In this document: positions 6,575 through 45,381 of the stretch, piece by piece
Position numbering within the stretch: the first letter of the stretch is position 1
How the letters are laid out: every line of letters begins with the position of its first letter
IMG/VR virus record: IMGVR_UViG_3300047409_000266
Span: 1-64,000 of that record
DNA from: a virus
DNA: 64,000 nt
Strand: one strand, 5' to 3'
Program-made: the position numbers and the translations under genes
The notes under the pieces: generated by a model
Told to the model about the DNA's origin: nothing
The model's database searches: none
Seen by the model: the letters and a program-made list of their open reading frames with translations, nothing else

Positions 6575-7030
6575 ATGGATTCTGGCATAGAGCAAAGCCA
6601 AAACATCGTCATTCGATATGCCGCGACCGACGAAGATGTCGTCGCGATCCATCAGTTTCTTTGCGTAGTAGCTGGGCCGACGCTCCCAGGCCCAATAGAC
6701 CCCAAGGATTCCTCAATTGAGGTGTGGCGCGTGGTTAACCACGACGTAGCGCTGATGGCGATGCGCGGCGATTTACTCGTCGGTACGCTCGGCTTAATAC
6801 GTCCTAAATTCTGGTGGGGTAAGGTCTGGTTCTTGGCGAACCGGTGGTTTTTCGTGCTGACGCCAAAAACTGGCATCGGGAAGCCACTGCTCAAAGAAGG
6901 GATCGCGATCGCGAAAGCGTCCGATCTCGAGTTGCACATCTACGACGAAAACGGCGGCCGCCTTAAAGTGTTCAACAAGAGTGAGAAGCGTCATGTGCCT
7001 GGGCAACGATACAAAACAATCACAGACTGA
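6575..7030 (+). CDS. GNAT-like acetyltransferase
   Basis: A 151-residue protein. The pattern fits a short GNAT fold: an N-terminal strand and helix (NIVIRYAATDEDVVAIHQFL), a central strand (GDLLVGTLGLIRPKFWWG), and a helix with TGIGKPLLKEGIAIAKASD, which resembles the acetyl-CoA pyrophosphate-binding loop (Q/RxxGxG/A). Similar proteins appear beside tail genes of other podophages. The substrate is unknown; acetylation of a virion or host protein is possible. The 3' end overlaps the next gene by 38 bases. Confidence 0.6.
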   Translation: MDSGIEQSQNIVIRYAATDEDVVAIHQFLCVVAGPTLPGPIDPKDSSIEVWRVVNHDVALMAMRGDLLVGTLGLIRPKFWWGKVWFLANRWFFVLTPKTGIGKPLLKEGIAIAKASDLELHIYDENGGRLKVFNKSEKRHVPGQRYKTITD

Positions 7031-8093
7031 CACCTCAAGCACACAGACACCGCCCGCTTGGCTGTCAGGTGCAGCCCAGCAAAACGTGGGGTTCGCTCAA
7101 AACCTACAGAATACCGGATTTACGCCCTACACCGGGTCACAAGTTGCGAGCTTTAGCCCACAGCAACAGCAGTCATTTGGGCTCGGCTCCGATATTGCTG
7201 GTGGAATCCAGCCGTACGTCGGGCAGGCTGGCGGGCTGATATCGAACTACGCCAATGCTGGCCCAGGCTCTGTGTCACCACAGACCATTGCCTCGCAGAT
7301 GTCTCCATACATGAATAATTATGTCAACCTCGCGCTGCAGCCGCAGCTTGAGCAGCTCAACCAGCAGTTTGCCGGTCAGAACAAGTCGTTCGACTCTGCG
7401 GCGACTGGAGCGGGGGCATTCGGCGATTCATCATGGAACCTCGGCCGCACCAATCTCACGCAGCAGCAGGACACCGCGCGCACCGGTCTGATCGGTAATG
7501 CCTACAACAACGCGTTCAATACGGCGATCGGCGCTGGCGCGCAGGATGTAGCGAGCAATCTGCAAGGGCAAACTACCAACGCGAACTTGCGGGAGACTGC
7601 ACTCAATCGCCAACTTGGCGGCGCAAACGCTCTCACAAGCGCTGGCACTAATGCAACAAATCTCATCAACACGCTCGGTGGCCAACAGACCGCGCAGCAA
7701 CAAGCTCAATTGAATGCCGCCTACAATCAATGGCTGATGGCACAGCAATATCCGTTCCAGACGACGCAGCTTCTTAATCAAACGGTTCAGGCGGGCCGTG
7801 CCGGTGCACCGATCTCGACGACTGGGACGAGCACCACGACGGCTCCGGATAATTCAGGATTTGGCATTCTCGGATCTGCGCTTGGTGCCATGCTGCCGGG
7901 CAGGAAAGCCGATGGCGGCCCTGTTGCGCCCGGTCAGCCTACCGTTGTAGGCGAGCGTGGGCCTGAATTGATCGTACCGAACACGCAGAGCGTGGTGATC
8001 CCGTACGAAGTGTTGCTCGCTGCGATCAAACAACGCGACGGCGCGAAAGCCCCAGCCACCGCCACTGGGCCATCGTTCGGAATCGCGGCTTAA
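6993..8093 (+). CDS. Internal virion protein with tape-measure-type C-terminus
   Basis: A 366-residue protein rich in Gln, Asn, Gly and Ala. The N-terminus (QTPPAWLSGAAQQNVGFA) is like that of ejection or DNA-transfer proteins. The C-terminus carries ADGGPVAPGQPTVVGERGP then ELIVPNTQSVVIP, the GERGPEL signature usually found at the ends of tape-measure and other internal phage proteins. The ATG at 6993 is chosen because GAGAAG lies just upstream; a GTG at 6981 is the alternative. It comes directly before another low-complexity virion protein and the giant ejection protein, consistent with an inner-core role. Confidence 0.7.
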   Translation: MCLGNDTKQSQTDTSSTQTPPAWLSGAAQQNVGFAQNLQNTGFTPYTGSQVASFSPQQQQSFGLGSDIAGGIQPYVGQAGGLISNYANAGPGSVSPQTIASQMSPYMNNYVNLALQPQLEQLNQQFAGQNKSFDSAATGAGAFGDSSWNLGRTNLTQQQDTARTGLIGNAYNNAFNTAIGAGAQDVASNLQGQTTNANLRETALNRQLGGANALTSAGTNATNLINTLGGQQTAQQQAQLNAAYNQWLMAQQYPFQTTQLLNQTVQAGRAGAPISTTGTSTTTAPDNSGFGILGSALGAMLPGRKADGGPVAPGQPTVVGERGPELIVPNTQSVVIPYEVLLAAIKQRDGAKAPATATGPSFGIAA

Positions 8094-8108: not shown

Positions 8109-9377
8109 ATGGGCATGCTCGATGACATGTTCGGGGACAACAGCACATTCGTGCAGAACATCCTCGGGATAAACCCGGCTGCGGCAAAACCAGCACCGCA
8201 AGGCACGCTGATGCCGCAGCCGCAGCAACCACCTGGGCCATCGCCGCAAACGCTAGCGATGACCAATGCACCGATGGACACCGCGCAGGCTCCGCCGTCT
8301 GCGAACACGATGGGCATGTCGAACGCAGGCGGTAGTCCGGTCTCTCCTAATCTCGCGTTCCAAGCGCAACTCAATCCGCAGATCGCAACGCCGCAAAACC
8401 CTATCCCACCGAACGGCGGTCAGGGTCCGGCGCCGCCGAGCGGGTTCCCGCCTTCAGCCCCGCCACCAGTACAGTTAAATCAAGGGCCGCCTGGATCGAA
8501 TATCTCTGGCGGCCTTATCGGCGGGCTTCCACCGCCAAATGGCGCTATCCCGCCGCCTCCGCCGTCGACTGGTCAAGGTCCGGTGACGAGCACGACCGGA
8601 AACGGTCTCGCTGGGGCGCTTGGTCTAAACAATGACCAGTGGCGCGCGAAAATGGCTGGGCTCGGACGTGGCCTCAGCGCTGTCGGCAATATCCGACCAG
8701 GAACACCCGCAGTCGCGGCGTTAGCCGCTGGCGCTGGCGGTACGCTCACCGGCCAAAATCAGGCGCAGGACACGCAGATCGCGCAGGCGAGGGCGAAGCA
8801 AAACGATGCGTTCAGCCAAGATTTGCAAACCAAAAACTACGATATCTCTAAACTTAAAGCAGCCATCAGCACTAAAATGATGAACGAGAAAATACCATTC
8901 TGGCAGACTCGCACTGATGTGTTAAAAACAAAGGCAGCGCAGGATGCCTCGTCGAAGGCATGGCAGATGAGCGAGCCTGGGAAGTACCACACTGCCGAGA
9001 CTGAAATTCAGCAGCATGAAAAGGGCCTCCTTGCGTTGTACCGCGATGAAATCAAGGATGCCACCTTGTCGGGAGACAAGGAGCGCCTGGATAAAGTGAG
9101 AAAAGTCGTCCAAGATGGTGTCGAAGATTTTCGGCAGAAAACTTATAAAAAATATAGCCTTGATCCGAAGAAGGCCGAAGATGCTGCGAAGAAAGGGTTT
9201 GTTGGGACTGAGGACCAGATCAAGCATCTGCCTCCTGGCACGCCGTTCTGGGATCCAAAATCTGGCACCACTCTAAAACGCAAGAAAGATCAGTTCAGCG
9301 AGCCAGTCACTGGCGAGCAGAATGCTCTTGCCATGCCAGGGCAAAATGAACAAGTTGGTGCTGGAGCCGAACAATAA
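8109..9377 (+). CDS. Pro/Gly-rich internal virion protein
   Basis: A 422-residue protein in two parts. Residues 1-160 are dominated by Pro, Gln, Gly and Asn and look disordered. From about 160 to 400 the sequence is helical and charged, ending in an acidic tail. No enzymatic motif was seen. The position between the two other internal virion candidates suggests it is packaged and ejected with them. ATG with GAAAGATCACTGCC upstream. Confidence 0.65.
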   Translation: MGMLDDMFGDNSTFVQNILGINPAAAKPAPQGTLMPQPQQPPGPSPQTLAMTNAPMDTAQAPPSANTMGMSNAGGSPVSPNLAFQAQLNPQIATPQNPIPPNGGQGPAPPSGFPPSAPPPVQLNQGPPGSNISGGLIGGLPPPNGAIPPPPPSTGQGPVTSTTGNGLAGALGLNNDQWRAKMAGLGRGLSAVGNIRPGTPAVAALAAGAGGTLTGQNQAQDTQIAQARAKQNDAFSQDLQTKNYDISKLKAAISTKMMNEKIPFWQTRTDVLKTKAAQDASSKAWQMSEPGKYHTAETEIQQHEKGLLALYRDEIKDATLSGDKERLDKVRKVVQDGVEDFRQKTYKKYSLDPKKAEDAAKKGFVGTEDQIKHLPPGTPFWDPKSGTTLKRKKDQFSEPVTGEQNALAMPGQNEQVGAGAEQ

Positions 9378-9967: not shown

Positions 9968-12900
9968 ATGTCCCTAGAAGATCAGTTGGGTGCGGTCGAT
10001 CCGCAAAGTGTCGACATAAATCCTCCTGTTCAACAAGCGCCGACGTATGCCCAAAATGTGGAGATAGATCCGCAGACATTTCGCAATAGGCACATTCGTA
10101 AAGGCATCGTCAAAGATCAACCAGTAGACCCGGCCGATGTAGCTGACAGCACTTTCCGTAGCGGCATGCCGGATTTGCCTCCTGGCCGCGTCAATCCGGG
10201 CGAGGTTGCGGATCGCATATTTCGTGATGCGCAAGAGCAGGAACGACGTCGCGCGCAGAAGCCGGCTAAACAACCAGCCGCAGACCTCTCACAGTACGGC
10301 GATCCAATAGTCGATTTGAGTCAGTACGGCGAGGCGGAAGCGCCAGAAGAAAAACCAGAGGAAAAGAAAAAGCCAGACTGGGGTGGCTATGGATCGGTAA
10401 TTGGAAAGTCGGCGGCGCAAGTCCCTACCGATATTGCTGGCGGCCTGTTGCAGGGGGCTGGCCTTATAGGCACCAAGGCTCTCCAAGGAGCAGCCAAATT
10501 CTCGCAAGCCCAACTCGATGTGATGGACCGCATTGATAAGGGCGAAAAAGTTCGCCCTGTAGACGACGCGATTGGCTACGGCGATATGACGCCAGAACAG
10601 CGCAAGGAGTTCCGTACTCAGACCCAGCCGAGACTTGAGAAGGACGCTAAAGCCAAATATCTGGCAGAAGATAATCCGGTCTACCAAGCTGGAAAATCAG
10701 TCAAGGAATTTGGCGAGAAGCAGTTCCCGCTCACTGATACCGAGAAGGGGAGTCTCACTAGCAAAATCACGAAGGGAACGCTGCTTGTAGCGCCACTTGT
10801 CGCGGCTGGCATCGTAGCGCCAGAGGCGGCTATCCCGATCGGCGGCGCTATGTTTGGGCTGACAGGCGCGGCCGATACCTACGAAGATGCTCGCAAAAAA
10901 GGTGCGAGTCCAGAAGATGCGATGACGTCCGCCGGATTATCAGGTGCCGTGAACGCTGCTCTTGGAACGGTTAATCTTGGATTTGTGCTGAAACCGATCC
11001 AGAAGTTTATGCCAGAAACCGAAAGTCTGGCGATAAAATTACTCGCGCGCGCGGGCCAGAGCGGAGTCACGTTTACTGGCATTGGCGAGGCACAAGAATT
11101 TCTTGGTCAACAGATCGGGAAAATCTACAATCCGCAGTACGTTGCAAAACTCAAGGGAGAGGAAGAAGAACTAAAGCTTAAAATAGCTGATGTTGAATCT
11201 GACCCGGCGAAAGCAGCGGCCAATGGCGGGTGGCTTAAGCAGGCTAAGGCCGGTGTTAAGTCCTACGAAGAAGCGATCGATGCGGCCTCTGGTTATTCGC
11301 TAGACGCCCAACGCATGATTGCTAGCTTCGCGACTGGGGCGATCTTGGGCACAGCGCACGGATTGATCGATGCGCGTACAGCGAAGAAACCAGTAACGAC
11401 CCCCGGCGAGGAGGGTACGAACACTGGCGACGAGCGTAAGACGCCTCCACCTCCTCCGCCGCCTGTCACACCAGATGAGACTGGGAATGAGCGTATTACT
11501 CCGCCTCCGCCTCCACAAAATCCAGAGCGCGCAGCACGGGAAGAACGAGCGCGAGAGCATGGACGCGCACGCGAGGCAGCGCGCGAGCAGCAACGTCAGG
11601 AAGAAGCGCGGGCGGCTAACGCTAGCCCAGAAGCTAAGGCAGCCGCACGGCAAGCCAAATACGAGACTTCTTTACGAGAACATTTCAACCTGACGGATGA
11701 GGATATCGCAGCGATCGGCCCAGACGGGCTGGAGGAAGCCCTCCGCGTTCGGAATTTCTTGGAAGATTATGGCATCCCAACAAAAGAGCTTCGCAGCAAG
11801 GAGCAATTCGACAAGGCATTGAAGGAGGCCAGTGATGCCGGCGCAGAGATTCCAGGCAAGGAAACGCCACCTCGCGGATCAACGAAAGAGGACACGGTCC
11901 CTCAGTCATCTGGGAAGTGGGAGGGTCTCAATTACACGCTTGAAACGGACAAGAATAATGTTCGAACAGGAGTAGACCCAGAGACCAGCAAACCATGGCA
12001 ACAAAAGATGGGATCGCCCCACGGATATTGGAATGTGGGGATGGGGGCCGATGGCGGGAAACTCGATGTCTATGTCGGACCTGATCGCACCGAAGGCCCG
12101 AATCAAAGCGTCATCGTCATTGACGAGAAGGATAAAAACACAGGAGCCTTCCGGCAGCACAAGACATTTATTGGTTTCAGCGGGCTAGACGCCATTCAGA
12201 AAGCGATTGTTGCCTACAAGTCTACCGAAGGCAAAAGCCACGGGATGATTGGCGGGATTAGGATTTTCAAGGCCGATGACTTCAAAAAATGGGTTAAGGA
12301 AGGCGACCTCAAGGCCCCAGTCTCTGATGCCATGAAGGCGGCTGAGAAGGCCCCTGGCAACGCAGCCGAGGCCGCCCAAGAGGTTGGGCCTGAAGCAGGC
12401 CACGAACACCACGCAGCCGTCGAAAACGTCCTGCGCGCCGCTGGCGTTGATCCTGCCACCGTGCGGCCGGCGGATGTGGCCAGAGCTAGTGAAATCCACG
12501 CCGAGGAAGGCGCTCCGCCAGATGAGGCTTTCCCAGTCGCCGTAGTGCGCAGTCTGGTGGAAGATGGGCATATCAGCCGAGAGACTGTCGAAAAGGAACT
12601 AGGCCATGCCGAAGCCTCCCAGTTATTGGACGCCATCGCACGCGCTCGGGGCGAGCCACCTATTAAAACGGATGGCGCCACAGCTCGTCGGGAGGCTACC
12701 GCGGTCGCGGGTGGCGAGCCTGCACGCGGCGCTGCGCCTGTCAAAGAAACAGCCACAGGGGGTGAAAAGCCATCTGTCGGTGAAGCCACAGCAGCCGGCC
12801 GTCCCGAGGGTGGGCGGGGCACTGTCGAGCCAGCCACCAGCGGGGAGCGCGTTGCCGAAGCAGGGACTACCGAAGGCAAGCCCGCTCGCGCAGGCCGTAC

Positions 12901-15900
12901 CGCCGCAGCAACTGCAGAGCAAGTTGCCAAGCCTACCAAAGCCACTGTAAGGCCATCAGAAAAGCAGTCCTTGCTGGAATTTATTGCGGCGCGCGGCGGC
13001 ATCGATTCGAGCGATCCGCTCGTCAAGGACATTCAGCAAAGCATCGGACACACCAACAAATTCATTCCAGGCTACGGCACCTTGATTCGCCAAGGCGGCA
13101 AGCGGCTGGACAGTATCCGCGAGGCCGCAGTAGAGGCAGGCTATCTGCATGATCCGGCCGAGCAGCATGGCGGCGTTACCGAGAGCACCATTGTCCATCT
13201 TCTGGATGCGGTCGACAAAGAGCTTAGGGGCGAGAAGCAGTACCGCGCTGGCTACACCCCAGAGACAAAAGAGCCCAGCGTAAGCCAGTTAAAACGTGAT
13301 CGCGATGCTCTCCATGAGGCTATGGCCAAGGAGAAGATTCCGCTTGATTCAAGCACGAAAGAGCATGAGGATTTGGCAGTTGCCATCTTCCATGAGCGCG
13401 GCGGTGATCCGCTCGATGCACTTGAGGCGGCAGCCTTTGAGCTTGAGCGTAATCATGAGGTTCTAACCGCCGAGGCGAAGCAAGACGCCGAAATAACTGA
13501 GGATCTAATCGATGATCTTGACAGGTACGCAGCACCGAAAGCTAGCGAAGCATTACCGGCAGAAGGCGGCAAAACTGCCGAAGGGCCAAAAGGCGCAGAA
13601 GTCCTTCCTGCACAAGAGCGCGGGGTTGCACCTGGGGCTAGCGAGAGCGCAGGGGTCGAAGTCAAGCCTAGCGCCGAAGTCAAAGGCGAGCAGCGACCCG
13701 GAGAGCGAGAACCTGCTAAGTCCACAACCGAGCGAACAAGCGCAGGAGAGCAAGCCGTCCTTCCAGGCGCAGAACGAATCTCCGACCGAGAGCACGCCCA
13801 GCGCGGAGCCGATGAGCGCCTAAAGCCGAAGGCAGAGCAGAAGGCCGCGGACGAAGGCTTGTTCGGAGATGAGAGCAAGCAGACCGACCTGCTCGATGCT
13901 GCGAAGAAGCCAGCCGCCGAACACCCCGGCCTCGTCATCAAGTCTCTTGAGACCGGCAAGGAAACTCACGTCAAGGTAAGGACGCCACAGGTCGAGGCGA
14001 TGCCCGGCACGGCACCGCTGGGTGCGAAGGCCAAGAGCGATTGGACAGAAATCGGGAGAAACGAAACCGGCCACACACTCTATGAAGATCAGCGCGGGGT
14101 GCGATCGTACATTGTTGCTGGCGTGCGTCGTACTGAGCCAGTGCCGATCGTGCCATCGCGTGGTGGTGTCACGCCCTACAAGCCAACGACCAGTGAGCGC
14201 GCGAAACACGGCAATGAATGGCTACTCACATCAGAGGTGAAGGCCGAAGAATCTCCGGATTATCAGCGTGGATGGAATAATGCCAAGGCGGATGGCCCAG
14301 AGAGCGCGCGCCGGCGTGGAGGTTCAGATCAAGAGAAGGCCGGGTATGACGCTTATGTTGATCAAGCGAAAACCACAAAATCTGGAGTAGCCGCCGAAGA
14401 ACCAGACATTAAACTCGCGCGCGCGCTGGCAAACCGCATCAAGAATGGCGAGTCAATCACGAACAAGGTGCTGCAAGATGAAGGCACCGCGGCCTTTGGC
14501 GGCACGCTGGCCGAGGGAAAATTCGATCGCAAGGACGCACACGATGCGCTCGAGCTCGCCGTCAATATGGCAGTACGCGAAGATCCCAAGTTGCGCATAC
14601 CGCCGTATCGTACCGACAATGCACCTTGGAAAGAGACCGTCGATCGTCTTATAAAGATATTGGACAAATTGCCGACCCAGCGCGTCCGCTCCGAGGAACA
14701 ACAGAGCTTCCAACAATTCTCAACACCGCCGCACTATTCGGCCGCTGTGGTCTATGCCGCTAGTCTACGCAAAGGTGACGTGGTCCTCGAACCGTCTGCC
14801 GGGACTGGCAGCTTAGTTGCGGCTGCATCAGCGCCGGGCGTGAAGATCATAGCCAACGAACTAGCACCGCGCCGCGCCGAATTGTTGCGCGCATTAGTGG
14901 GGGATGACGGTCGTGTTTTCACGGAGAACGCCGAGCAACTCGACAATATCCTGCCGGCCGACGTGAAGCCATCAGTGGTGGTGATGAACCCGCCATTCAG
15001 CCAGACCGCAGGCAGGATGGGCGATAAGCGCGACATTACCGTAGGTGCCACGCACATCAAACAGGCTCTTGGGCGGCTGGAGCCGGGCGGGCGCCTTGTG
15101 GCGATCGTCGGCCGCGGCATGTCCATGGAGGCTCCTGCCTTCAAACCATGGTGGAAATTGATTGAGGATGAGTACGCCGTTCGTGCTAATATCGGAGTCG
15201 ACGGCGACGTATACGGCAAATACGGGACCAATTTCGGCACCCGTCTCCTGGTGATCGACAAAGTCGCACCTACATCAGGAGAGAAGCCGATCACCGCCGA
15301 AGCGCACACGGTCGATGACCTGATGCGCGCATTGGAGCCGATCCGCGATGCCAGACCACAAGCCATTGGAGGTAAGCCAGAATTCCAACCTGCTCAACCG
15401 AGCGGCGTGGAAATGGCTCAAGGAGGCGAGGGACGAAGCCCCGCCGCAGCACCTGTACGTCCTGAGCCTAGCGTTCTGGGGGCTGGAGAACGGGGCGGGC
15501 GGGGAGTGGCCACCGAGGGACAAGCCGGCGTTGGAGGAACAGGTGGGGCAACTCCTGGGCTGGAAGCCGGAAAACGCCCTGGCGTGGCTGCTGTCGAACC
15601 CGAACGGGCCGGAACAGAACGAGCAGGGGCAAAGCTTGTTGAGGGCACTGCAAAGGGCGAGCAGCCCAAAGGGGGCGGCGGCGTTGGTCCTCAACCAGAT
15701 TTACAGCAGACAGCAAAGCCAGAATCCGGCACTGCAACCAGCAGCGAGCGAATTGAGCTAGAGCACGCCGAGCCGGGCACGCAGACAGCGTCCGAGATCA
15801 GCGAAAGTCTGTACGAGGAATATCAACCACAGCGCGTCAAGGTTCCTGGTGCCAAGAAGCATCCTGGTCCGCTTGTGCAATCTGCAGCTATGGCGTCGGT

Positions 15901-18900
15901 CGAACCGCCGCTTCCGAAGTACAAGCCAGCACTACCGCGCGAGGTGATCGACAAGGGTTTGCTTTCGAACGCCCAGCTTGAGCCGGTCATCTATGCCGGC
16001 GAAGCACATTCCGCGATGCTCCCGGCCGCCGAGAACGAGACACCGAAACGCCGCGGCTACTTCATTGGCGACGGTACTGGCGTCGGCAAAGGCCGCGAGG
16101 TTGCCGGCATCATCCTCGACAACTGGCAGCAAGGACGTACGAAGGCGGTATGGGTTTCCGAGAAGCGCAAACTGCTCAACGACGCCAAACGCGACTGGTC
16201 GGGCCTAAAGCAAAATCCGAACGTCTTGTTCGACATTGGCAAGGTCAAGTCTGGTGAACCGATCGGCGCGGAGCGTGGTATCGGCTTTGTCACCTACGAT
16301 ACGCTCAAAGGTGGCATGTCAGATCAAGCATCGCTCGCGCGTGGCGGGTTTGTGCGCAAGCAGCCGGTTTCCGTTAATGGGCAACCGGGAACTGTGCAAA
16401 AGATTGAGCCTGGGCGCCGCGGGCAACCGCCACAAGTTACGGTCGCTCTCGACAACAAAACGACAGTGACGGTGCCAGGAAACGAGGTAACAGTTAGCGA
16501 AGCGATGACGGTTAAATCCCGCGTCGACCAGCTTGCCGATTGGCTTGGAAAAGACTTCGACGGTGTGATCGCGTTCGATGAAGCCCACAACATGGGCAAT
16601 GCGATAACGACAAAGGGTGAGCGCGGCACGAAGGACGCGGCGCAAAAGGCGCTCGCTGGACTTGCGCTACAAGATCGCTTGCCGAATGCCCGCGTCGTCT
16701 ATGTCTCAGCGACAGGTGCGACGGAGGTTTCCAATCTGTCTTATGCCGATCGCTTGGGATTGTGGGGACGCGGGACGCCGTTTGCTTCTCGCGACAAGTT
16801 CATCACGGAAGTTGAGAAGGGTGGTATCGCGGCGATGGAGCTCATCGCTCGCGACATGAAACAGCTTGGCATCTACATCGCGCGCAATCTGTCCTACGAC
16901 GGTGTCGAATACAATCGCCTCGAACACAAGCTCGATCCAAACCAGCGTGAGATTTACGACACCGTTGCCGAGGCATGGCAGATCGTTCTGAGAAACATCC
17001 ATGCTGCCTTAGAGGAAACAGGCGGCAACAAGGACGCACGCGCCAAGTCTGCGGCAATGTCGGCGTTCTGGGGTGGGCACCAGCGGTTCTTTAATCAGAT
17101 TGTCACCTCGCTACAGATGCCATCCGTCATCAAGGCGGCAGAAAAGGATTTGAAGGAGGGGCGCCAAGTCGTCCTGCAACTGACTAACACGAATGAAGCA
17201 TCGCAAGAGCGCGCCGCCGCGAAGGCCGAGACAGCCGAGGATATCGAGGATCTCGATATCACGCCGCGCGATCAGATTATTCAACTGGTCGAGAAGTCGT
17301 TCCCAACGCAGGAATATGAACAATATCGCGACGAGAACGGCAATGAGCGCTCGCGACCAGTAGCCGATGCAAATGGCAACGCCGTACAGAACAAAAAAGC
17401 CGTAGCGATGAAAGAGGCGCTGATCGATCGGCTTGCCTCAGTGCGCGTGCCGCAGGGCCCGCTCGATATGATCCTAGATCACTTTGGCACCGATGTTGTG
17501 GCCGAAGTGACAGGCCGCAAGCGCCGCTTTGTGATGAAGGAGGACGAAAAGACCGGCCAGAAAAAGCGCATGGAGGAAAGCCGGCCAGGATCGTCCAACC
17601 AGTCCGAGACCGATACATTTCAGGCTGGCAAGAAACAGGTGCTAGTGTTTTCAGAGGCTGGCGGCACTGGTGCCTCGTACCATGCCGACAATAGTTCAGG
17701 TTCAAAAGACGCGCGCCGCTCGCACTATCTGGTGCAAGCAGGTTGGCGAGCCGACAAGGCCGTGCAGGGTTTTGGCCGTACACACCGTACCAATCAGGCA
17801 TCGGCGCCGATCTTTCACCTCGTTACCACTGACCTCGATGGGCAGAAGCGTTTCATATCATCGATCGCGCGGCGCCTCGGGCAACTTGGGGCACTGACGA
17901 AGGGCGAACGCAAGGCCGGCGATCAGGGCATCTTCTCGGCGCGCGACAATCTGGAAAGCAAGGAAGCACATCAGGCAATATCCCAGTTCTACAATGATCT
18001 CCTGCATGACAACATCGAGGGTGTCCGCATCGATGATTTTGAGGCGCAGACTGGCCTCTCTTTGCGGATCAAGGACGACGAAGGCCGTGTTACTGGGGCC
18101 AAGCAGGAACTGCCGCCGATAACGCAATTCCTCAACCGTCTGCTGTCGCTCAAGATTGATCTGCAGAACAAGGTGTTCCGCGCGTTCTCGGATAGGCTCG
18201 ATCACGTTATCGAGGTACGCCAACAGGCCGGGCTGCTCGATGTTGGCCTTGAGACTGTGAAGGCTGACAAGATCGCGAAAGAGACCGAGGAAGTAGTCCA
18301 TACCGCCAAGGAGAGCGGCGCCGAGACCAAATACGTCAAACTTGCGGTCTCGGACAAGTTTCACCCAACGCCGTTCAAATTCGTTGCCGACAATCCGAAC
18401 CGCAAAATAGTGTCGTGGGCGAAAAGCCCACACGGCAAGGTGTACGGAATTGCGGAAGCGCCAGACATTACCCAGGCCGATACTGGACGCATCATCCCGC
18501 AATACCGCATCATCAGCCCTGTTTCTCCGTCGCGTCTCATCGCACGAGACAACGTAGATCGCCGCGATACCGAATGGAAGAAGATCGAGAAACAGGACGC
18601 CAAGGATCTGTGGCAGGTTGAGACCGAGAAAGCTCCTGAATTTGTCACTCGCGATCTGCATCTCATCACGGGCGCAATCCTACCGGTGTGGGATCGCCTC
18701 AAAGGTAGTCCGCGGGTGGTGCGGCTGCAGACAGACAAGGGCGAGCGTTTTCTTGGGCGCGTCATTCCGGAATCGCACATTTCAGATACACTGCAGGCGC
18801 TTGGCGCGGAGACCAAGGCTAAGGTTGTCGAGCCTACTGCGCTGCTTTCGCAACTCATGGCCGGTGCACAAGCGAAGCTCGCAAATGGCTGGAGGTTCAA

Positions 18901-21900
18901 GCGATCGCTGGTGGCTGGCGAGCACCGTATCGAATTGACGGGCCCAACGTCGTTCTCGGAAGGCCAACAAGTTAAAGCGGACGGCGTATTCACCGAGCGT
19001 ATCAACTACACCGTACGATACTTTGTGCCGACCGATCCAGAGGCTGGCGCGCGCGTGCTGGCGCGGCTGATTGAGCACAGACCGGTGATTGAACTTGGCA
19101 AGGCCGGCGGCGAGGAAGATGACATTACCGCTGCGATGGCTCTGCCCGCAAAGCCAAAAAGTGAATGGTATTATTCCGCTGTCGCAAACGCGATCGATAC
19201 AGCGAAGCATGAGAAAGCCGCGCCTAATCAATGGCTTGGAATGTTGCGCAACACCCCAGGTGTGAAGCCGGAAGAAATGAAATGGCTCGGGCTTGAGGAA
19301 TGGCTGCGCGATCATAAGGGCCCCGTCAGTAAGCAGGAACTCTCCGACTACGTCCGCGCCAATCAGATTGAGTTGAAGGAGGTAGAGAAGGGCATAAAAC
19401 AGGATTCTCCTAGGCTTGAAGAATTGCGCGAAAACCCACGCCGCACACCGACTGAGGAAGATGAATTTTCGCGGCTCCTCGCGGAGGCCGACCCAGAACG
19501 TGAAATAGCCAGGATTGATGCTGGTATTCGAGTTTTGTCAAACTGGCCAGATGATCCATCTACCGCACGCAATCCAGTCAATCAGGCGGAATTGGATATA
19601 CTGTCGGCACGCTGGGAGGAATTGCAATCCTCAACCGTGCAAGCACGCGGCCCGACCAAATTCGGCACCTACACTCTCCCCGGAGGCGAGAACTACCGCG
19701 AATTGCTGCTGACGCTGCCGGAGAAGAAGAATCCAGCGCGCACTGCGGTCGAGGATATCAACAAGAAACTCATCGACAAATACGGTGGCCTTCAAGATGC
19801 GTTCAATAGATGGACGCCAGAGGAAAACGCTGAGTTTGATCGCATCCACAATGATGCCTATGGCATCGAGAGAGATTCAAATCCGCCGAACTATCACTCC
19901 TCCCACTGGGACGAGCCCAACGTCCTCGCGCATGTTCGCTTCAATGACCGTGTGATCGACGGCAAGAAAACGCTGTTCGTTGAGGAAGTGCAAAGCGACT
20001 GGCACCAGCAAGGCAAGCGCCGCGGTTATGGTGAGCAGCGACCAGATACGTCCAAGTGGGTTGCAGAACGAGTTACGACATCAAATGAGCGAGCTATCCG
20101 GCAATTTGCTGACAAAAATCCTCCATATTGGAAAGTCTTAGATGAGGATGGCAAAACTCTAAAATATATCTTCGCGGCAGACGAAGCCGAAGCCATCAAG
20201 AGCGTCGCAGATCAACTTACAGAGCGCGGTGTCCCCGACGCTCCATTCAAAACCACATGGCCAGAACTCGCAATGAAGCGGATGATCCGCTACGCGGTGG
20301 AGAATGGCTACGACAAGATCGCGTGGACACCAGGCGATGTGCAGGCCGAGAGATACGATCTGAGCAAGCAGATCGACGGCGTTACATATTTTACAAAGAC
20401 CGGCAATCTCTATGCGACCAAGGGTATTGACACGATTTTTAGCAAGCATGGCGTCAAGCCAGAACAATTGAGCGATTATATCGGTAAGGATGCAGCCGAC
20501 AAAGTTTTGAATCAACCAGATCGAAAGTACCAACATTCGGAAACGGAAGGGCCAGCACACGAGATTAGCGGTGCATCTCTCAAAGTCGGCGGCGAGGGGA
20601 TGCGCGGTTTCTACGACCAAATCCTTCCTGCCGCAGTCAATAAGTTGGTCAAGAAATACGGCGGGAAGGTTGGGCAAGGACAATTGCCTGAACGCGGAGC
20701 TTGGGAAGTGTATGCCAGCGAAGGCGGACCTTTCCTCGGCAATGCTCGTACATTCGGCGAAATGCGAGACGCGCGTAGAGAAGGCAAGTTCATCAAGGAA
20801 AATCCGGACGCCGAAGGCCGCAGGGTTCACTCCCTCGACATTACCCCGCAACTCCGTGATGCCGCACTTGCCCAAGGATTTCCTGTATTCCAGGCTAAAC
20901 CAGCCGCAGTACAACGTTCGCAGCCCAGCCGTGGTCTGACTGAGGCGGCGGAAACAAACCGTTTGAAGGCCGCCGAGCAGCGCCGCGAACTGCAATTCAC
21001 CGATTTTGCGAAACGCGCGGAGGTCGAGAAGGCCGTCTTGGCCATGCTCGATCACATGACCGGTGGTCGGTTCTCGCGCGGGCAGGCCCATGTGTTGCTG
21101 CCTGATACGATCCCAGGCTCGGCCGAATCTGGCTATGGCAACCTCAATCTCGCCCCGAATCGTGGCGGCACCTACAGCCCGGTCTACGAAGTCATTAGGG
21201 TAGCGCTTTCCGATCCTGACTACCCCAACCCGTTCCGCGGTGTGGCGCACGAAGCCACCCACATGATTCTAGACCACTTTGCGACCGATCAGGAGCGCGC
21301 GTTGCTCCAGCATCAGCGCCCAAGGATGGTCGAGCGCGTTGCCAAGGACCGCAATCTCACATTCGATCAGGCCAATTCGCTGTCCCAGTACGAGATCGAG
21401 GCACACTACGGCGAAGCCTATATCGATGATCGCGCCAAGGGCGGTAACGGTGCCGGGGTGCATATCGGTCTGCGTCGATTGTTCGAGCGCATCATGGATT
21501 TCTTCCGCCGCGTGCGCGCGTGGTTGAACGGCCACGGCTTCCGAACCATCGACGACATCTATTCAGACATCTACGAAGGCAAGATGGGCCAGCGGGAATC
21601 GCGCCGCGACAAGGGCGAAGAATCAAAACTGATAAAGGACATCAGGGCAGAGCAGGCGGCGGAGAAGGCGAAGGCTGAGAGGGCGAGGCCAACGGCATCA
21701 GCCGAGCCACCGATTGAGGCCGCCATGGCGCGGCCATCCAGGCGCCCAGCGGGAGCCGTAAGCCGATATCCAGTAGCGGAGACTATCTCCGATATATTGG
21801 AAGCGAAAAATTGGCCGAAGCTTGCCAAAATCTCGCAATCTATCAGAATAGGTGGCCTCAACCCCATCGAGCTTCGCGTAAAGGTGCAAGATAAATTCTT

Positions 21901-24463
21901 GCGCTGGAAACGGATTGAAGAAGCAGTTGGGCGCGAAACTGGGCAGCCAATCCCGGAGGATATGCAGACTTATCTCCGTGAAAGCCTTTACTATGGGCGC
22001 ACTGGCGAGCAGCTCGAGCGCCTCGACCAGAATCATATCGATCCACTGATTGATGACATCAAGAAACGCGGCCTTACGCTCGAAAAGGTCGATCAGTTTC
22101 TGATGGCGCGGCACGCCGAAGAACGAAATGAGAAACTGCGCAAGATTAATCCATCGATCGCTGATCCATCCGGTATGTCGGATGCCGAAGCACGGCGCAT
22201 CATGAAGGAGATATATGATAGTCCGAAGCGCAGCGACTACGCTGCAATCGGTAAGCGGGTTCGGGCGCTGACGACGCAAACGCTAGAAACTTTGGTCAAA
22301 GGTGGCCTTATCAGCAATGAGACTGCGGCGAGATGGGCAGAAGCATACAAATTCTATGTCCCGCTGCGTGGTTGGGCGGAAGGGCCAGACGATCCTAACT
22401 TCGGCACCGGTCGGGGCTTCGACGTGCGAGGCGAAGAAAGTAAACAGGCGCTCGGGCGCAGTTCTGTTGCCGACAGTCCGCTTAGCTATGTGCTTCTGCA
22501 AGCGCAGAACGCGATAATCAGGGCGGAGAAAAACCGCGTTGGACAGACAGCACTCAACTTCGTGCGCAACCATCCAGATCCAGGGCTTTGGAAGGTCGAT
22601 AAGGGAAACACATCGCGCAAAATCGACACACAGACTGGATTGGTGAAAGACATCACCGAGCCCATGTGGCACATGCAGGACAACGTCTTTGCCGTCAAAG
22701 AGGACGGCAAGGTGCATTACATCAATTTCCAAGGAGACTACGGCGAGGCACTGGCGCGTGGGCTCAACAATCTCGGCACCGCGAACATGGGTCCGATCAT
22801 GCGGTTTGTGTCGACGCTGACGCGCACGATGGCGCGGCTCTCCACCTCATGGAATCCGGATTTTATGATCCCGAATTTCGTGCGTGACGCAGGCGAAGCC
22901 TTTATCAATCTGCAAGCTCAAGATCAAAAGAAGTTTGTCAAACAGTTTTCAAAGCATCTGATTCCGTCCATCGGCGGAGCGTTCAATGCGTTGAAAGGTG
23001 GCACTACGGGCAAATACACAGAGGCATTCCACGAATTTGATAAGGCCGGCGGGCGCATCCGATTCTTCGGCATGGAGAACGTGGAGGATATCAAGACCAA
23101 TATCGAGCGCAAGATGAAGCGGCTTGAGGGCGGCGTCATGAACAGCGCCGCGGTTGCTGGCAGCAAGCTCATGTCAGCGATTGAAATCGCCAACGGTGGT
23201 ATTGAGAATGCAACACGTCTGGCGGCGTTCATGGCCGGACGCGATGTTGGTTTAACCAAAGAGAAGTCGGCCTCGATCGCGCGAGAGTTGACGGTCAATT
23301 TTAACCGTAAGGGCGAATACGGGCAGATTCTCTCTGGCCTCTATATGTTTGCTAACGCCTCTCTGCAGGGATCTACGCGCATGGCGCAGGCGCTATCGTC
23401 ATCGCCGAAAGCGCGGCGTATGGCTTATGCGCTGGCAGCAGCAGCAGCAGCAATGGCGCTGTATAATCTCAGTTGGGGCGGAGATGATGAGGACGGTGTC
23501 CCGTTCTATCTCAAAATTCCTCCCTGGGAGCGAGATACCAATCTAATCCTGATGTGGCCCAAGGGCATGGGTATGGACGGCAAGTACGTCAAACTGCCTT
23601 TGCCATACGGCTATTCGTTCTTTGCTACGATTGGTGCGCGGTCAATGACGATGCTGAGCGGCAAAGAGAAGGCTTCGAAGGCTGTTCCAGCGATGGCCAA
23701 GTCGGTATTCGATGCGTTCGATCCGCTCGGGCGCGACGAAAATTCGCTCGCGCAGTTCGCACCGACTATCGTTAAGCCGGCCATCCACATTTACACCAAC
23801 GAGAATTGGACCGGCCGGCCGATCAATCCATCGCAGGAGCCGTGGAACAAGCACGAGCCGCGCTCATCACGTTCGTTTAGGTCGGCATCGGAAGGCTCAA
23901 AGACTGTGGCCGAGGGATTGAATGCGTTGACTGGGGGCACCAAGCGCGAGCCTGGATGGGCAGATATTTCTCCCGGCAGTCTCGATTACCTATTCGGAAC
24001 CATAACCGGCGGCCTCGGGCGCTTTGTCGCGAACACCGCTGGAACCGTTGGCCGAGCCTACGAGGGGCAGGAGTGGAAGATCAACAAGACACCAATCGTG
24101 CATCGCTTCTTCGGTGAGATAGATCCTGCCGCGAGTCGTGCGATCTATTTTGAGGAACGCGAGAAGGTGAATGCGGCAAGCGAGCGCCTTCAAGGATATA
24201 GGAAGGACCACGACCCACAGGCCGTCCAGCGTTTCCGCAAGGAAAACCAAGCCGAGATTTCGAGCCACGAGATATTTAAGCGAACCGACGAGCAGCGGAA
24301 GAAAATTAATGAACAAGTCGACCGCATAAAGGCAAACAAGGATCTGTCTGCCGCCGATCGAGAAACGCAGCTTAAAGTGCAGGAAAAGCGCGAGTTGGAC
24401 CTGATGATGCGTGCACGCAAACAGATCGAGACTCGCAGAAACGCGCCAACGGCACTGCCTTAA
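9968..24463 (+). CDS. Giant polyvalent ejection protein (DarB-like MTase/helicase, peptidase, LPD38)
   Basis: A single uninterrupted frame of 4831 residues. Domains in order: disordered N-terminus with DLSQYGDPIVDLSQYGEAE near 106-124; hydrophobic Gly/Ala segments near 153-175 and 267-300; Pro-rich linker near 493-518; inorganic-pyrophosphatase-like domain near 653-778 (GGKLDVYVGPDR); SLLEFIAARGGI domain near 997-1100; DNA adenine methyltransferase with LEPSAGTG at 1607-1614 and NPPF at 1674-1677; strawberry-notch-type SF2 helicase with GDGTGVGKG at 2034-2042, DEAH at 2204-2207 and FGRTHRTNQ at 2602-2610; an EVQSDWHQ-bearing module near 3230-3640; a zincin-like peptidase with HEATH at 3761-3765; and an LPD38-type C-terminus with WNPDF at 4295. 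Methyltransferase followed by SNO helicase is the architecture of phage P1 DarB. Polyvalent proteins of this kind are packaged and injected to protect incoming DNA. Individual activities are inferred from motifs. Confidence 0.9.
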   Translation: MSLEDQLGAVDPQSVDINPPVQQAPTYAQNVEIDPQTFRNRHIRKGIVKDQPVDPADVADSTFRSGMPDLPPGRVNPGEVADRIFRDAQEQERRRAQKPAKQPAADLSQYGDPIVDLSQYGEAEAPEEKPEEKKKPDWGGYGSVIGKSAAQVPTDIAGGLLQGAGLIGTKALQGAAKFSQAQLDVMDRIDKGEKVRPVDDAIGYGDMTPEQRKEFRTQTQPRLEKDAKAKYLAEDNPVYQAGKSVKEFGEKQFPLTDTEKGSLTSKITKGTLLVAPLVAAGIVAPEAAIPIGGAMFGLTGAADTYEDARKKGASPEDAMTSAGLSGAVNAALGTVNLGFVLKPIQKFMPETESLAIKLLARAGQSGVTFTGIGEAQEFLGQQIGKIYNPQYVAKLKGEEEELKLKIADVESDPAKAAANGGWLKQAKAGVKSYEEAIDAASGYSLDAQRMIASFATGAILGTAHGLIDARTAKKPVTTPGEEGTNTGDERKTPPPPPPPVTPDETGNERITPPPPPQNPERAAREERAREHGRAREAAREQQRQEEARAANASPEAKAAARQAKYETSLREHFNLTDEDIAAIGPDGLEEALRVRNFLEDYGIPTKELRSKEQFDKALKEASDAGAEIPGKETPPRGSTKEDTVPQSSGKWEGLNYTLETDKNNVRTGVDPETSKPWQQKMGSPHGYWNVGMGADGGKLDVYVGPDRTEGPNQSVIVIDEKDKNTGAFRQHKTFIGFSGLDAIQKAIVAYKSTEGKSHGMIGGIRIFKADDFKKWVKEGDLKAPVSDAMKAAEKAPGNAAEAAQEVGPEAGHEHHAAVENVLRAAGVDPATVRPADVARASEIHAEEGAPPDEAFPVAVVRSLVEDGHISRETVEKELGHAEASQLLDAIARARGEPPIKTDGATARREATAVAGGEPARGAAPVKETATGGEKPSVGEATAAGRPEGGRGTVEPATSGERVAEAGTTEGKPARAGRTAAATAEQVAKPTKATVRPSEKQSLLEFIAARGGIDSSDPLVKDIQQSIGHTNKFIPGYGTLIRQGGKRLDSIREAAVEAGYLHDPAEQHGGVTESTIVHLLDAVDKELRGEKQYRAGYTPETKEPSVSQLKRDRDALHEAMAKEKIPLDSSTKEHEDLAVAIFHERGGDPLDALEAAAFELERNHEVLTAEAKQDAEITEDLIDDLDRYAAPKASEALPAEGGKTAEGPKGAEVLPAQERGVAPGASESAGVEVKPSAEVKGEQRPGEREPAKSTTERTSAGEQAVLPGAERISDREHAQRGADERLKPKAEQKAADEGLFGDESKQTDLLDAAKKPAAEHPGLVIKSLETGKETHVKVRTPQVEAMPGTAPLGAKAKSDWTEIGRNETGHTLYEDQRGVRSYIVAGVRRTEPVPIVPSRGGVTPYKPTTSERAKHGNEWLLTSEVKAEESPDYQRGWNNAKADGPESARRRGGSDQEKAGYDAYVDQAKTTKSGVAAEEPDIKLARALANRIKNGESITNKVLQDEGTAAFGGTLAEGKFDRKDAHDALELAVNMAVREDPKLRIPPYRTDNAPWKETVDRLIKILDKLPTQRVRSEEQQSFQQFSTPPHYSAAVVYAASLRKGDVVLEPSAGTGSLVAAASAPGVKIIANELAPRRAELLRALVGDDGRVFTENAEQLDNILPADVKPSVVVMNPPFSQTAGRMGDKRDITVGATHIKQALGRLEPGGRLVAIVGRGMSMEAPAFKPWWKLIEDEYAVRANIGVDGDVYGKYGTNFGTRLLVIDKVAPTSGEKPITAEAHTVDDLMRALEPIRDARPQAIGGKPEFQPAQPSGVEMAQGGEGRSPAAAPVRPEPSVLGAGERGGRGVATEGQAGVGGTGGATPGLEAGKRPGVAAVEPERAGTERAGAKLVEGTAKGEQPKGGGGVGPQPDLQQTAKPESGTATSSERIELEHAEPGTQTASEISESLYEEYQPQRVKVPGAKKHPGPLVQSAAMASVEPPLPKYKPALPREVIDKGLLSNAQLEPVIYAGEAHSAMLPAAENETPKRRGYFIGDGTGVGKGREVAGIILDNWQQGRTKAVWVSEKRKLLNDAKRDWSGLKQNPNVLFDIGKVKSGEPIGAERGIGFVTYDTLKGGMSDQASLARGGFVRKQPVSVNGQPGTVQKIEPGRRGQPPQVTVALDNKTTVTVPGNEVTVSEAMTVKSRVDQLADWLGKDFDGVIAFDEAHNMGNAITTKGERGTKDAAQKALAGLALQDRLPNARVVYVSATGATEVSNLSYADRLGLWGRGTPFASRDKFITEVEKGGIAAMELIARDMKQLGIYIARNLSYDGVEYNRLEHKLDPNQREIYDTVAEAWQIVLRNIHAALEETGGNKDARAKSAAMSAFWGGHQRFFNQIVTSLQMPSVIKAAEKDLKEGRQVVLQLTNTNEASQERAAAKAETAEDIEDLDITPRDQIIQLVEKSFPTQEYEQYRDENGNERSRPVADANGNAVQNKKAVAMKEALIDRLASVRVPQGPLDMILDHFGTDVVAEVTGRKRRFVMKEDEKTGQKKRMEESRPGSSNQSETDTFQAGKKQVLVFSEAGGTGASYHADNSSGSKDARRSHYLVQAGWRADKAVQGFGRTHRTNQASAPIFHLVTTDLDGQKRFISSIARRLGQLGALTKGERKAGDQGIFSARDNLESKEAHQAISQFYNDLLHDNIEGVRIDDFEAQTGLSLRIKDDEGRVTGAKQELPPITQFLNRLLSLKIDLQNKVFRAFSDRLDHVIEVRQQAGLLDVGLETVKADKIAKETEEVVHTAKESGAETKYVKLAVSDKFHPTPFKFVADNPNRKIVSWAKSPHGKVYGIAEAPDITQADTGRIIPQYRIISPVSPSRLIARDNVDRRDTEWKKIEKQDAKDLWQVETEKAPEFVTRDLHLITGAILPVWDRLKGSPRVVRLQTDKGERFLGRVIPESHISDTLQALGAETKAKVVEPTALLSQLMAGAQAKLANGWRFKRSLVAGEHRIELTGPTSFSEGQQVKADGVFTERINYTVRYFVPTDPEAGARVLARLIEHRPVIELGKAGGEEDDITAAMALPAKPKSEWYYSAVANAIDTAKHEKAAPNQWLGMLRNTPGVKPEEMKWLGLEEWLRDHKGPVSKQELSDYVRANQIELKEVEKGIKQDSPRLEELRENPRRTPTEEDEFSRLLAEADPEREIARIDAGIRVLSNWPDDPSTARNPVNQAELDILSARWEELQSSTVQARGPTKFGTYTLPGGENYRELLLTLPEKKNPARTAVEDINKKLIDKYGGLQDAFNRWTPEENAEFDRIHNDAYGIERDSNPPNYHSSHWDEPNVLAHVRFNDRVIDGKKTLFVEEVQSDWHQQGKRRGYGEQRPDTSKWVAERVTTSNERAIRQFADKNPPYWKVLDEDGKTLKYIFAADEAEAIKSVADQLTERGVPDAPFKTTWPELAMKRMIRYAVENGYDKIAWTPGDVQAERYDLSKQIDGVTYFTKTGNLYATKGIDTIFSKHGVKPEQLSDYIGKDAADKVLNQPDRKYQHSETEGPAHEISGASLKVGGEGMRGFYDQILPAAVNKLVKKYGGKVGQGQLPERGAWEVYASEGGPFLGNARTFGEMRDARREGKFIKENPDAEGRRVHSLDITPQLRDAALAQGFPVFQAKPAAVQRSQPSRGLTEAAETNRLKAAEQRRELQFTDFAKRAEVEKAVLAMLDHMTGGRFSRGQAHVLLPDTIPGSAESGYGNLNLAPNRGGTYSPVYEVIRVALSDPDYPNPFRGVAHEATHMILDHFATDQERALLQHQRPRMVERVAKDRNLTFDQANSLSQYEIEAHYGEAYIDDRAKGGNGAGVHIGLRRLFERIMDFFRRVRAWLNGHGFRTIDDIYSDIYEGKMGQRESRRDKGEESKLIKDIRAEQAAEKAKAERARPTASAEPPIEAAMARPSRRPAGAVSRYPVAETISDILEAKNWPKLAKISQSIRIGGLNPIELRVKVQDKFLRWKRIEEAVGRETGQPIPEDMQTYLRESLYYGRTGEQLERLDQNHIDPLIDDIKKRGLTLEKVDQFLMARHAEERNEKLRKINPSIADPSGMSDAEARRIMKEIYDSPKRSDYAAIGKRVRALTTQTLETLVKGGLISNETAARWAEAYKFYVPLRGWAEGPDDPNFGTGRGFDVRGEESKQALGRSSVADSPLSYVLLQAQNAIIRAEKNRVGQTALNFVRNHPDPGLWKVDKGNTSRKIDTQTGLVKDITEPMWHMQDNVFAVKEDGKVHYINFQGDYGEALARGLNNLGTANMGPIMRFVSTLTRTMARLSTSWNPDFMIPNFVRDAGEAFINLQAQDQKKFVKQFSKHLIPSIGGAFNALKGGTTGKYTEAFHEFDKAGGRIRFFGMENVEDIKTNIERKMKRLEGGVMNSAAVAGSKLMSAIEIANGGIENATRLAAFMAGRDVGLTKEKSASIARELTVNFNRKGEYGQILSGLYMFANASLQGSTRMAQALSSSPKARRMAYALAAAAAAMALYNLSWGGDDEDGVPFYLKIPPWERDTNLILMWPKGMGMDGKYVKLPLPYGYSFFATIGARSMTMLSGKEKASKAVPAMAKSVFDAFDPLGRDENSLAQFAPTIVKPAIHIYTNENWTGRPINPSQEPWNKHEPRSSRSFRSASEGSKTVAEGLNALTGGTKREPGWADISPGSLDYLFGTITGGLGRFVANTAGTVGRAYEGQEWKINKTPIVHRFFGEIDPAASRAIYFEEREKVNAASERLQGYRKDHDPQAVQRFRKENQAEISSHEIFKRTDEQRKKINEQVDRIKANKDLSAADRETQLKVQEKRELDLMMRARKQIETRRNAPTALP

Positions 24464-24497: not shown

Positions 24498-24761
24498 ATG
24501 GCTCGCATGAACGAAGCTGACTATCGGCCGGCGTACCCAATGACCGGCTCAATCACGATTACCAAGAGCGACTCAACCGTGCTCGGGACGATCTGCCGTG
24601 GGCTTTGGGTCGGTGGAGTGGGCGACGTCGCAGTTCGGATGCTGGACGGCTCGACACCAACTTTTACAGCCGTACCGGCCGGAACACTGCTCAATATCCA
24701 ATTCGATAAAGTGCTATCAACCGGCACAAGCGCATCTTTGATGGTGGGACTCTATGGCTGA
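24498..24761 (+). CDS. Spike base protein, RCAP_rcc01079-like
   Basis: An 87-residue beta-rich protein. The pattern ITKSDSTVLGTICRGLWVGG, DVAVRMLDGS, FTAVPAGTLLNIQFDKVL and GTSASLMVGLYG matches the small spike base protein family named after RCAP_rcc01079 of the Rhodobacter gene transfer agent, also found in many alphaproteobacterial phages. It is a head or spike component. GTAGGAG precedes the ATG. Its end overlaps the endolysin start by 8 bases. Confidence 0.75.
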   Translation: MARMNEADYRPAYPMTGSITITKSDSTVLGTICRGLWVGGVGDVAVRMLDGSTPTFTAVPAGTLLNIQFDKVLSTGTSASLMVGLYG

Positions 24762-25413
24762 TCTCAATATCTCCCAGGCGGGAATCGATCTGATCGTAAA
24801 TGAGGAAACCGGTGGACAAGCATACTTTTATCATTCGGGAGAGAACCATCCGGATTGGCCGGGTGGACAGTCCGGTGTCACAATCGGCATAGGTTACGAT
24901 CTGGGCTATTCAACGCCGAGCACTATCGCAGCAGATTGGGCAGCATTGCCAGAGGATGAGATTGTAGCGTTGCAGTCAGTCGCAGGTATCCACGGTGCTG
25001 CTGCGAGCTCGCACGCCCACGAACTCCACTGGGTTACAGTGTCGTGGGAAGTTGCGATGGACGTATTTGCCAATCGCGATCTGCCCAAGTGGGTTGATAT
25101 CTGCGACCGTGATTTGCCGAATTTTGGCGATCTCCACGGAGACTGTCGCGGCGCATTAGTAAGCTTGGCCTTTAACAGAGGCGAGTCATGGAACACCTCG
25201 GCAGCGAATGACGCGACCGGGCGCTACCGCGAAATGCGCGCCATCAAATCTCTGATGATGCAAAAGCGTTTTGACGATATTCCAGCTCAGTTTCTCGCGA
25301 TGCGGCGCCTGTGGCCGGTCGACGGCGATCTCTGGAAACGGCGCGGCCATGAGGCCGATTTATTCAAGCAAGGTCTTATCGCGATGAAGGCTGGAGAGCT
25401 TGTGAGAAATTAG
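24754..25413 (+). CDS. Endolysin, lysozyme-fold
   Basis: A 219-residue cytosolic peptidoglycan hydrolase without signal peptide. The N-terminal part has the lysozyme-like arrangement ISQAGIDLIVNEETGGQAYF, with a Glu at the expected catalytic place, then GGQSGVTIGIGYDLGY, the signature of GH24/pesticin-like phage muramidases. RGALVSLAFNRG near 130-142 matches the conserved helix of that fold. It overlaps the spike base gene and precedes a holin-like gene by 11 bases, giving a standard lysis order. The precise subfamily is uncertain. Confidence 0.85.
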   Translation: MADLNISQAGIDLIVNEETGGQAYFYHSGENHPDWPGGQSGVTIGIGYDLGYSTPSTIAADWAALPEDEIVALQSVAGIHGAAASSHAHELHWVTVSWEVAMDVFANRDLPKWVDICDRDLPNFGDLHGDCRGALVSLAFNRGESWNTSAANDATGRYREMRAIKSLMMQKRFDDIPAQFLAMRRLWPVDGDLWKRRGHEADLFKQGLIAMKAGELVRN

Positions 25414-43253: not shown

Positions 43254-43264
43254 TGGTGTGCTCC

Positions 43265-43909: not shown

Positions 43910-43942
43910 TGTCGTTGCTCCTGTTATCGTGTTGACGTCAGA

Positions 43943-45181: not shown

Positions 45182-45381
45182 AGGTTTGCTCCGTGTATGA
45201 TGGTTACATATTTGAGGACGCACACGATGGTGAACAGAAACGAGATAAGTGCTGTGATAACTGGGGACCACGGGAAGTGGAATTCCGAAATTCCAAACAG
45301 CCACGCAAGGAAAAGTCCGAAGTTAATTCCTCCAAGGAGGGCTGAAAAAATTGCGAACACTAGAAGCGTTTCATTTGTCAT
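45178..45381 (-). CDS. Two-TM membrane protein
   Basis: A 67-residue protein with two hydrophobic segments (about 5-30 and 40-60) and short polar ends. ATGA overlap with the GHKL-like gene, and an 11-base overlap with the XRE gene upstream. It could anchor or regulate the adjacent ATPase. No family was recognised. Confidence 0.65.
   Translation of the reverse strand: MTNETLLVFAIFSALLGGINFGLFLAWLFGISEFHFPWSPVITALISFLFTIVCVLKYVTIIHGANL

Follow-up and report, generated by a model that had tools for sequence, protein, structure and literature searches.

We analysed a window of 64 kb, which is the first part of a 96,528-base virus record from IMG/VR (IMGVR_UViG_3300047409_000266) consisting of one metagenomic contig. 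The window contains a giant gene for a polyvalent protein (Table 1). The initial annotation had reported a single uninterrupted frame of 14.5 kb, and translation of 9968-24463 indeed gave 4,831 codons from ATG to the stop codon without an internal stop, whereas each of the other five frames of this interval contains 74-211 stops. At the composition of the interval, the natural logarithm of the probability of 4,831 stop-free codons is about -189. The third-position G+C content of the frame is 0.53-0.67 throughout. No Rfam families were found in window positions 6000-28000.

Table 1. Features of the giant gene, its product and its neighbours (window coordinates).
Feature	Position	Strand	Remarks
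Virion structural protein	4500..6341	+	phrog_3287, E 1e-43
Small GNAT-like protein	6575-7030		upstream of the giant gene; read by eye
DNA ejection protein-like	6981..8093	+	phrog_4287, E 7e-13
Protein preceding the giant gene	8109..9377	+	one small ORF between; no family match; place of JC1 gp68 / Stx gp52
Giant polyvalent protein gene	9968..24463	+	4,831 aa; ATG start; purine-rich GAGGAAG about 12 nt upstream
N-terminal Gly/Ala-rich hydrophobic region	10385..11407	+	aa 140-480; most hydrophobic at aa 267-298; kept in 7 relatives
InPase-fold domain	11903..12298	+	aa 646-777; Pfam InPase E 8e-21
Helical segment preceding the methyltransferase	14285..14707	+	aa 1440-1580; FGGTLAEG aa 1510-1517; position of LPD36
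Gamma-class DNA adenine methyltransferase	14675..15367	+	aa 1570-1800; TP motif and NPPF
Strawberry-notch-type SF2 helicase/translocase	15905..18367	+	aa 1980-2800; Walker A, DEAH and QxxGRxxR invariant
Helicase C-terminal extension	18365..18967	+	aa 2800-3000; kept in 93 relatives; possibly the Sno C-terminal domain
EVQSDWHQ module	19166..20962	+	helical 'YSA...GVKPEE' sub-domain from aa 3067; conserved alpha/beta domain aa 3225-3665
Zincin-like metallopeptidase	21185..21862	+	aa 3740-3965; HEATH 3761-3765
C-terminal module with LPD38, mostly helical	21860..24460	+	LPD38 aa 4514-4711, Pfam E 7e-46
Lysozyme-like protein, start of lysis cassette	24754..25413	+	weak Pesticin match, E 0.003

The genes are arranged in the order structural protein, GNAT-like protein, ejection protein, giant protein, and lysozyme/holin-like proteins; the holin-like protein was read by eye. 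Tail-fibre genes also lie upstream. The giant protein is encoded among late and virion genes on both sides, and the ejection setting assumed in the initial annotation agrees with the structural and ejection-like genes upstream and the lysis-like genes downstream. Beside the lysis cassette, 25791-26612 encodes a candidate papain-like (C1) peptidase (phrog_16701, E 4e-10; Pfam Peptidase_C1, 0.007). A RecT-like annealing protein, a Mu Gam-like end protection protein and a phrog_8203 protein are encoded in a row at 41994-45304 on the minus strand. In the second part of the phage record, L003:2435-3277 and L003:7196-8014 match the same function-unknown PHROG and are probably paralogues; the same holds, with another such PHROG, for L003:4978-6435 and L002:11883-13418.

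Several unrelated catalytic domains, namely a methyltransferase, an SF2 helicase, a zincin and an InPase fold, are joined with LPD38 in one polypeptide. The domain searches found the methyltransferase and the helicase, on whose detection the initial annotation had made its proposal depend, and also LPD38 at the C-terminus. The methyltransferase is marginal in Pfam (MTS, 0.034) and clear in PHROGs, at about aa 1570-1790 (9133, E 2e-20; 6263 'DNA methyltransferase', E 3e-13), and it contains FSTPP (aa 1584-1588), EPSAGTG (aa 1608-1614) and NPPF (aa 1674-1677). A helicase of the SWI2/SNF2 clade is found directly C-terminal to it, in the Strawberry-notch variant only: Pfam identified AAA_34 (E 2e-112) and Helicase_C_4 (aa 2498-2763, E 2e-85), that is, Strawberry notch and not SNF2. 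Its Walker A motif (GDGTGVGKG, aa 2034-2042), DEAH (aa 2204-2207) and motif VI (aa 2600-2610) are intact. In an alignment with 16 relatives of 44-73% identity, FSTPP, EPSxGxG, NPPF, GDGxGxGKG, FDEAHNM and QGxGRxHRxN were invariant; because of this invariance, both enzymes look active. The sequence profile of this methyltransferase-helicase dyad, and that of the helicase alone, gave no PDB match beyond chance. In the DarB-type dyad, LPD36 precedes the methyltransferase as four helices with GXG[GAS]. At this position, a conserved FGGTxAxG segment is present in 86 sequences and did not match the LPD36 model.

We compared the protein with its nearest relatives. The dN/dS ratios, which are rough as the synonymous distances exceed 1, were about 0.11-0.21 for the helicase and 0.16-0.23 for the methyltransferase. 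The zincin, the InPase domain, the hydrophobic region and the C-terminal module diverge far more from the same relatives. The helicase and methyltransferase are thus under strong purifying selection and form a constrained core within exchangeable surroundings.

The family was reached via this core. IMG/VR scans gave 18 clear relatives of the core and one weak fragment, and of 264 genome loci 79 were kept; modular relatives are also present in putative prophages. A scan of viral contigs with the C-terminal part found no relative. Local profiles delimited the shared core as the helical leader, methyltransferase, helicase and C-terminal extension. The proteins that bear it range from about 1,500 aa (Rhodobacteraceae, partly plasmid-borne) to 6,160 aa; the longest (L010 with L108) exceeds the window protein, and has the InPase domain, methyltransferase and Strawberry-notch helicase in a single frame. 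The hydrophobic N-terminus, InPase domain, zincin, EVQSDWHQ module and C-terminal LPD38 module are changing partners of the core, and within the compared set only the window protein combines all five. Since no record among 50,697 isolated phages matched the dyad at E 1e-20, none of the phages to which the dyad belongs has been studied.

The methyltransferase matches PADLOC mads_2 (E 7e-16), and similar dyads stand alone on plasmids. These observations could be explained if the dyad acted not at entry but once the phage is established, serving for modification or superinfection exclusion. In the window, however, virion-type modules are joined to the dyad in one protein, whose gene lies in a structural operon beside lysis-like genes, and we consider an action after establishment highly improbable.

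The initial annotation had suggested that the pyrophosphatase-like domain and the peptidase attack host defence at entry. Such effectors, acting on host defence proteins or alarm nucleotides, would be consistent with proposals that polyvalent zincins could partly be effectors and that InPase domains act on nucleotides (PMC5512222), and the HExxH motif is intact here. Regarding the pyrophosphatase-like domain, the fold was confirmed, but the active site is altered. In the alignment, D45, D50, D66, D76 and E77 (alignment numbering) are invariant in the seven relatives; in the window protein, D76 and E77 are replaced by R and Q (FDE to FRQ, aa 728-730, with the changes at aa 729-730), and the second D of DGD is G, at a position that is also variable in one relative. 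The conserved acidic metal ligands of type I inorganic pyrophosphatase are thus not fully retained, and four acidic residues have been stated to form the active site of the InPase family (PMC5512222). Because two acidic residues that are invariant in the other seven aligned sequences are lost, the activity is doubtful and the domain is probably impaired here, which argues against its part in an attack on host defence.

The HEATH metallopeptidase is present as annotated. HExxH is retained in the relatives that span the motif, and the downstream glutamates in YEIEAHYGEAY (aa 3808-3818) include a candidate third ligand, so that the combination known from polyvalent zincins, HExxH plus a downstream Glu, is found. 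Among polyvalent domains, the HExxH zincin is the most frequent one, and it is generally interpreted as a peptidase that processes its own chain; self-cleavage by a polyvalent zincin has been proposed (PMC5512222). Zincins occur in polyvalent proteins of quite different content, and no host target is indicated. By analogy, the peptidase more likely processes the giant protein itself, an attack by it on host defence being possible, and a role of the two domains together as effectors is unlikely.

The EVQSDWHQ module, which the initial annotation had merely named, is the least known and most interesting part of the giant protein. The motif itself lies at aa 3340-3347. At least 600 stretches in IMG/VR match patterns of the module, at least 563 of which encode a relative, and only three isolated phages have it. 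Among 46 members, no convincing Pfam match (LPD models included) and no PDB sequence match was found. The module is found within giants, and many proteins of 600-800 aa carry it C-terminally; at the five loci examined, such proteins are encoded close to portal or internal-virion/tail genes, and Pelagibacter phage HTVC028P has the module between 'internal protein A' and 'internal virion protein'. The alignment has 24 invariant columns. Since these include H, E, Q, D, W and R, the module is probably an enzyme. We regard it as new as an unnamed family; it may have been described earlier, as subscription literature was mostly outside the search.

The AlphaFold model of the module (pLDDT 82) matched other phage polyvalent proteins in BFVD. 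In a Foldseek search against the PDB, many of the best matches were GNAT acetyltransferases, at the weak level of E >= 1.7e-3 and a TM of about 0.07. HHalign aligned GNAT with the module profile at a non-significant probability of <5%, over the stretch of the expected GNAT helix-strand. The score was 21.0 and the maximum in column-shuffled profiles was 17.9 (0 of 60 reached the score), a comparison weakened by the fact that column shuffling removes helix periodicity. We did not accept the GNAT identity, given this probability and the lost periodicity in the shuffled profiles; the modelled fold hints weakly at a GNAT acetyltransferase. Tentatively, the module may represent a very widespread family of unnamed enzymes, perhaps GNAT-like transferases whose cofactor site is altered. 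Many tailed phages would have such an enzyme in the virion, by itself or as part of a giant, and would deliver it at entry, where it would modify a host target.

Some further proteins bear on the distribution of this module. A protein of 2,387 aa from Dolichospermum phage Dfl-JY45 (L194:5409-12572) has two EVQSDWHQ modules, each after a helical sub-domain. In L129:3976-7215, an intein-like insert with Hint-type blocks and LAGLIDADG-like motifs splits the module exactly between LPGG and NYRE, at its best motif; inteins prefer sites of this kind. The giant of a putative Rubrivivax prophage (L032:4280-18265; 4,662 aa) has an ART-like YHGT segment at the place of the module; it shares the leading segment only and was rejected as a carrier. 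The 'endolysin' annotation of phrog_7348, which covers the EVQ region, was also rejected; it is carried over from a multi-domain family of 2,564 aa and does not denote lytic activity.

The C-terminal module connects the window protein to a known virion protein. Over the last ~860 residues, it is 26% identical to gp69 of Burkholderia phage JC1 (over 97%, E 3e-56; profile E 7e-99); it is also 31% identical to Stx-phage proteins and 32% identical to giants of Vibrio and Ruegeria phages. PHROGs matched aa 3836-4827 with three function-unknown families of 2.8-3.9 kaa. JC1 gp69, a 'DarB-like antirestriction protein' of 4,515 aa, was detected in CsCl-purified virions by mass spectrometry with 51 unique peptides (PMC9144972). 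The combination of several catalytic domains, virion-gene context and homology to a protein found in virions bears out the annotation of the window protein as a polyvalent phage-type protein. In JC1, the order is head closure, acetyltransferase, virion-associated proteins, giant protein and lysis. The neighbouring structural genes gave no direct similarity to those of JC1 by phmmer, so the shared order is one of position and family only.

The location in an ejection-protein module, the N-terminal hydrophobic region and the mostly helical C-terminal module could also point to a DNA-delivery protein like gp16, in which a translocase held at the inner membrane would be an ATP motor pulling the genome in and methylation would be secondary. 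Membrane segments and a DNA-binding hub in the cytoplasm have been described for T7 gp16 (PMC8954989), and SWI2/SNF2-type ATPases are seen as duplex translocases (PMC5512222). For the C-terminal module, no PDB sequence match beyond chance and, with a moderate model (pLDDT 66), no fold match was found, to T7 gp16 or otherwise; its Foldseek matches were discarded as chance helical matches. Against such a motor, many phages with the same C-terminal module, such as JC1, Stx and Vibrio phages, are without the Strawberry-notch helicase. Moreover, almost every long relative with an uncut frame has the methyltransferase together with the helicase, among them plasmid-type proteins of ~1,500 aa, which enter by other routes. 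As the methyltransferase is present even there, the marking of DNA seems to be the common task, and a genome-pulling motor is improbable.

The explanation that we favour, and consider likely, is a polyvalent virion protein on the JC1 plan, which is packaged and delivered and whose dyad shields the entering DNA. From the homology to JC1 gp69, the giant protein would probably occupy the head together with the ejection proteins and enter the cell along with the DNA. The hydrophobic N-terminus probably has a role in packaging or membrane passage, and the C-terminal LPD38 module may serve packaging and passage together with it. The Strawberry-notch translocase would then travel on the entering duplex, which the N6-adenine methyltransferase fused to it would mark or cover in cis; a coupling of cis methylation to translocation has been proposed for DarB-type dyads (PMC5512222). 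DNA marked or covered in this way would escape type I-like or other translocating restriction systems. By analogy, the HExxH domain may cleave the chain into functional pieces, whether ahead of delivery, in its course or afterwards, and the EVQSDWHQ module may be a further delivered enzyme.

The Strawberry-notch methyltransferase dyad is abundant in plasmids, putative prophages and uncultured phages; these findings link it to the plan of the JC1 virion protein. They show which parts stay strongly constrained (helicase and methyltransferase) and which are exchanged. They also expose the EVQSDWHQ module as a common, unnamed and probably enzymatic virion module that is directly testable. A related giant is encoded in putative prophages of hosts that can be cultured; the one in Sporomusa ovata DSM 2662 has 3,915 aa. 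Virion proteomics and restriction tests are thereby feasible.

The general idea, the domain types and the virion location of a homologue have already been published. Polyvalent proteins with each of the named domain types of the window were described in 2017 by Iyer et al. (PMC5512222), who noted the Strawberry-notch ATPase in 'a few instances'. Their Methylomonas protein WP_020485828.1 is described as a polyvalent protein with the same helicase subclass; none of their LPD models matches the EVQSDWHQ module. What is new is the Strawberry-notch version of the JC1 plan, the unnamed EVQSDWHQ module, and the joining in one chain of modules that are scattered among the relatives.

In its proposed way of working, as a large protein of the internal-virion/ejection cluster that would be delivered with DNA, the window protein is comparable to T7 gp16 and the N4 vRNAP, to which it showed neither sequence nor fold similarity. 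P1 DarB, a capsid-packaged antirestriction factor, likewise has an adenine methyltransferase fused to an SF2 translocase (PMC9024508; PMC5512222). The protein resides in the capsid and is believed to reach the cell interior, and the Dar system guards P1 DNA against type I restriction (PMC9024508). P1 DarB differs in its size of about 250 kDa, its N-terminal packaging signal, its five helper Dar proteins and its helicase family. The term 'DarB-like' in the initial annotation holds for the methyltransferase and SF2 translocase but not for the helicase family, as both DarB and JC1 gp69 have the SNF2 type instead of Strawberry notch. Stx-phage gp51 (2,793 aa) and the giants of Vibrio and Ruegeria podophages have a homologous C-terminal module without the Strawberry-notch dyad; gp51 carries LPD5, LPD1 and MuF_C instead, and Ruegeria 45A6 additionally has the hydrophobic region, methyltransferase and zincin in common with the window protein. 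The Bcep22-like JC1 gp69 is alike in size, in its place where the virion module ends, before the lysis genes, in the methyltransferase followed by an SF2 helicase in mid-chain, and in the C-terminal LPD38 module. Its Pfam order is SLT, Eco57I-type methyltransferase, SNF2 helicase, LPD3 and LPD38, and the methyltransferase and helicase profiles of the window did not match it. Where JC1 gp69 has the N-terminal SLT transglycosylase, the SNF2-type helicase and LPD3, the window protein has the InPase domain, the Strawberry-notch helicase, the EVQSDWHQ module and the zincin. Judged from these sequences, the giant protein is the Bcep22/JC1 plan with another helicase and other cargo.
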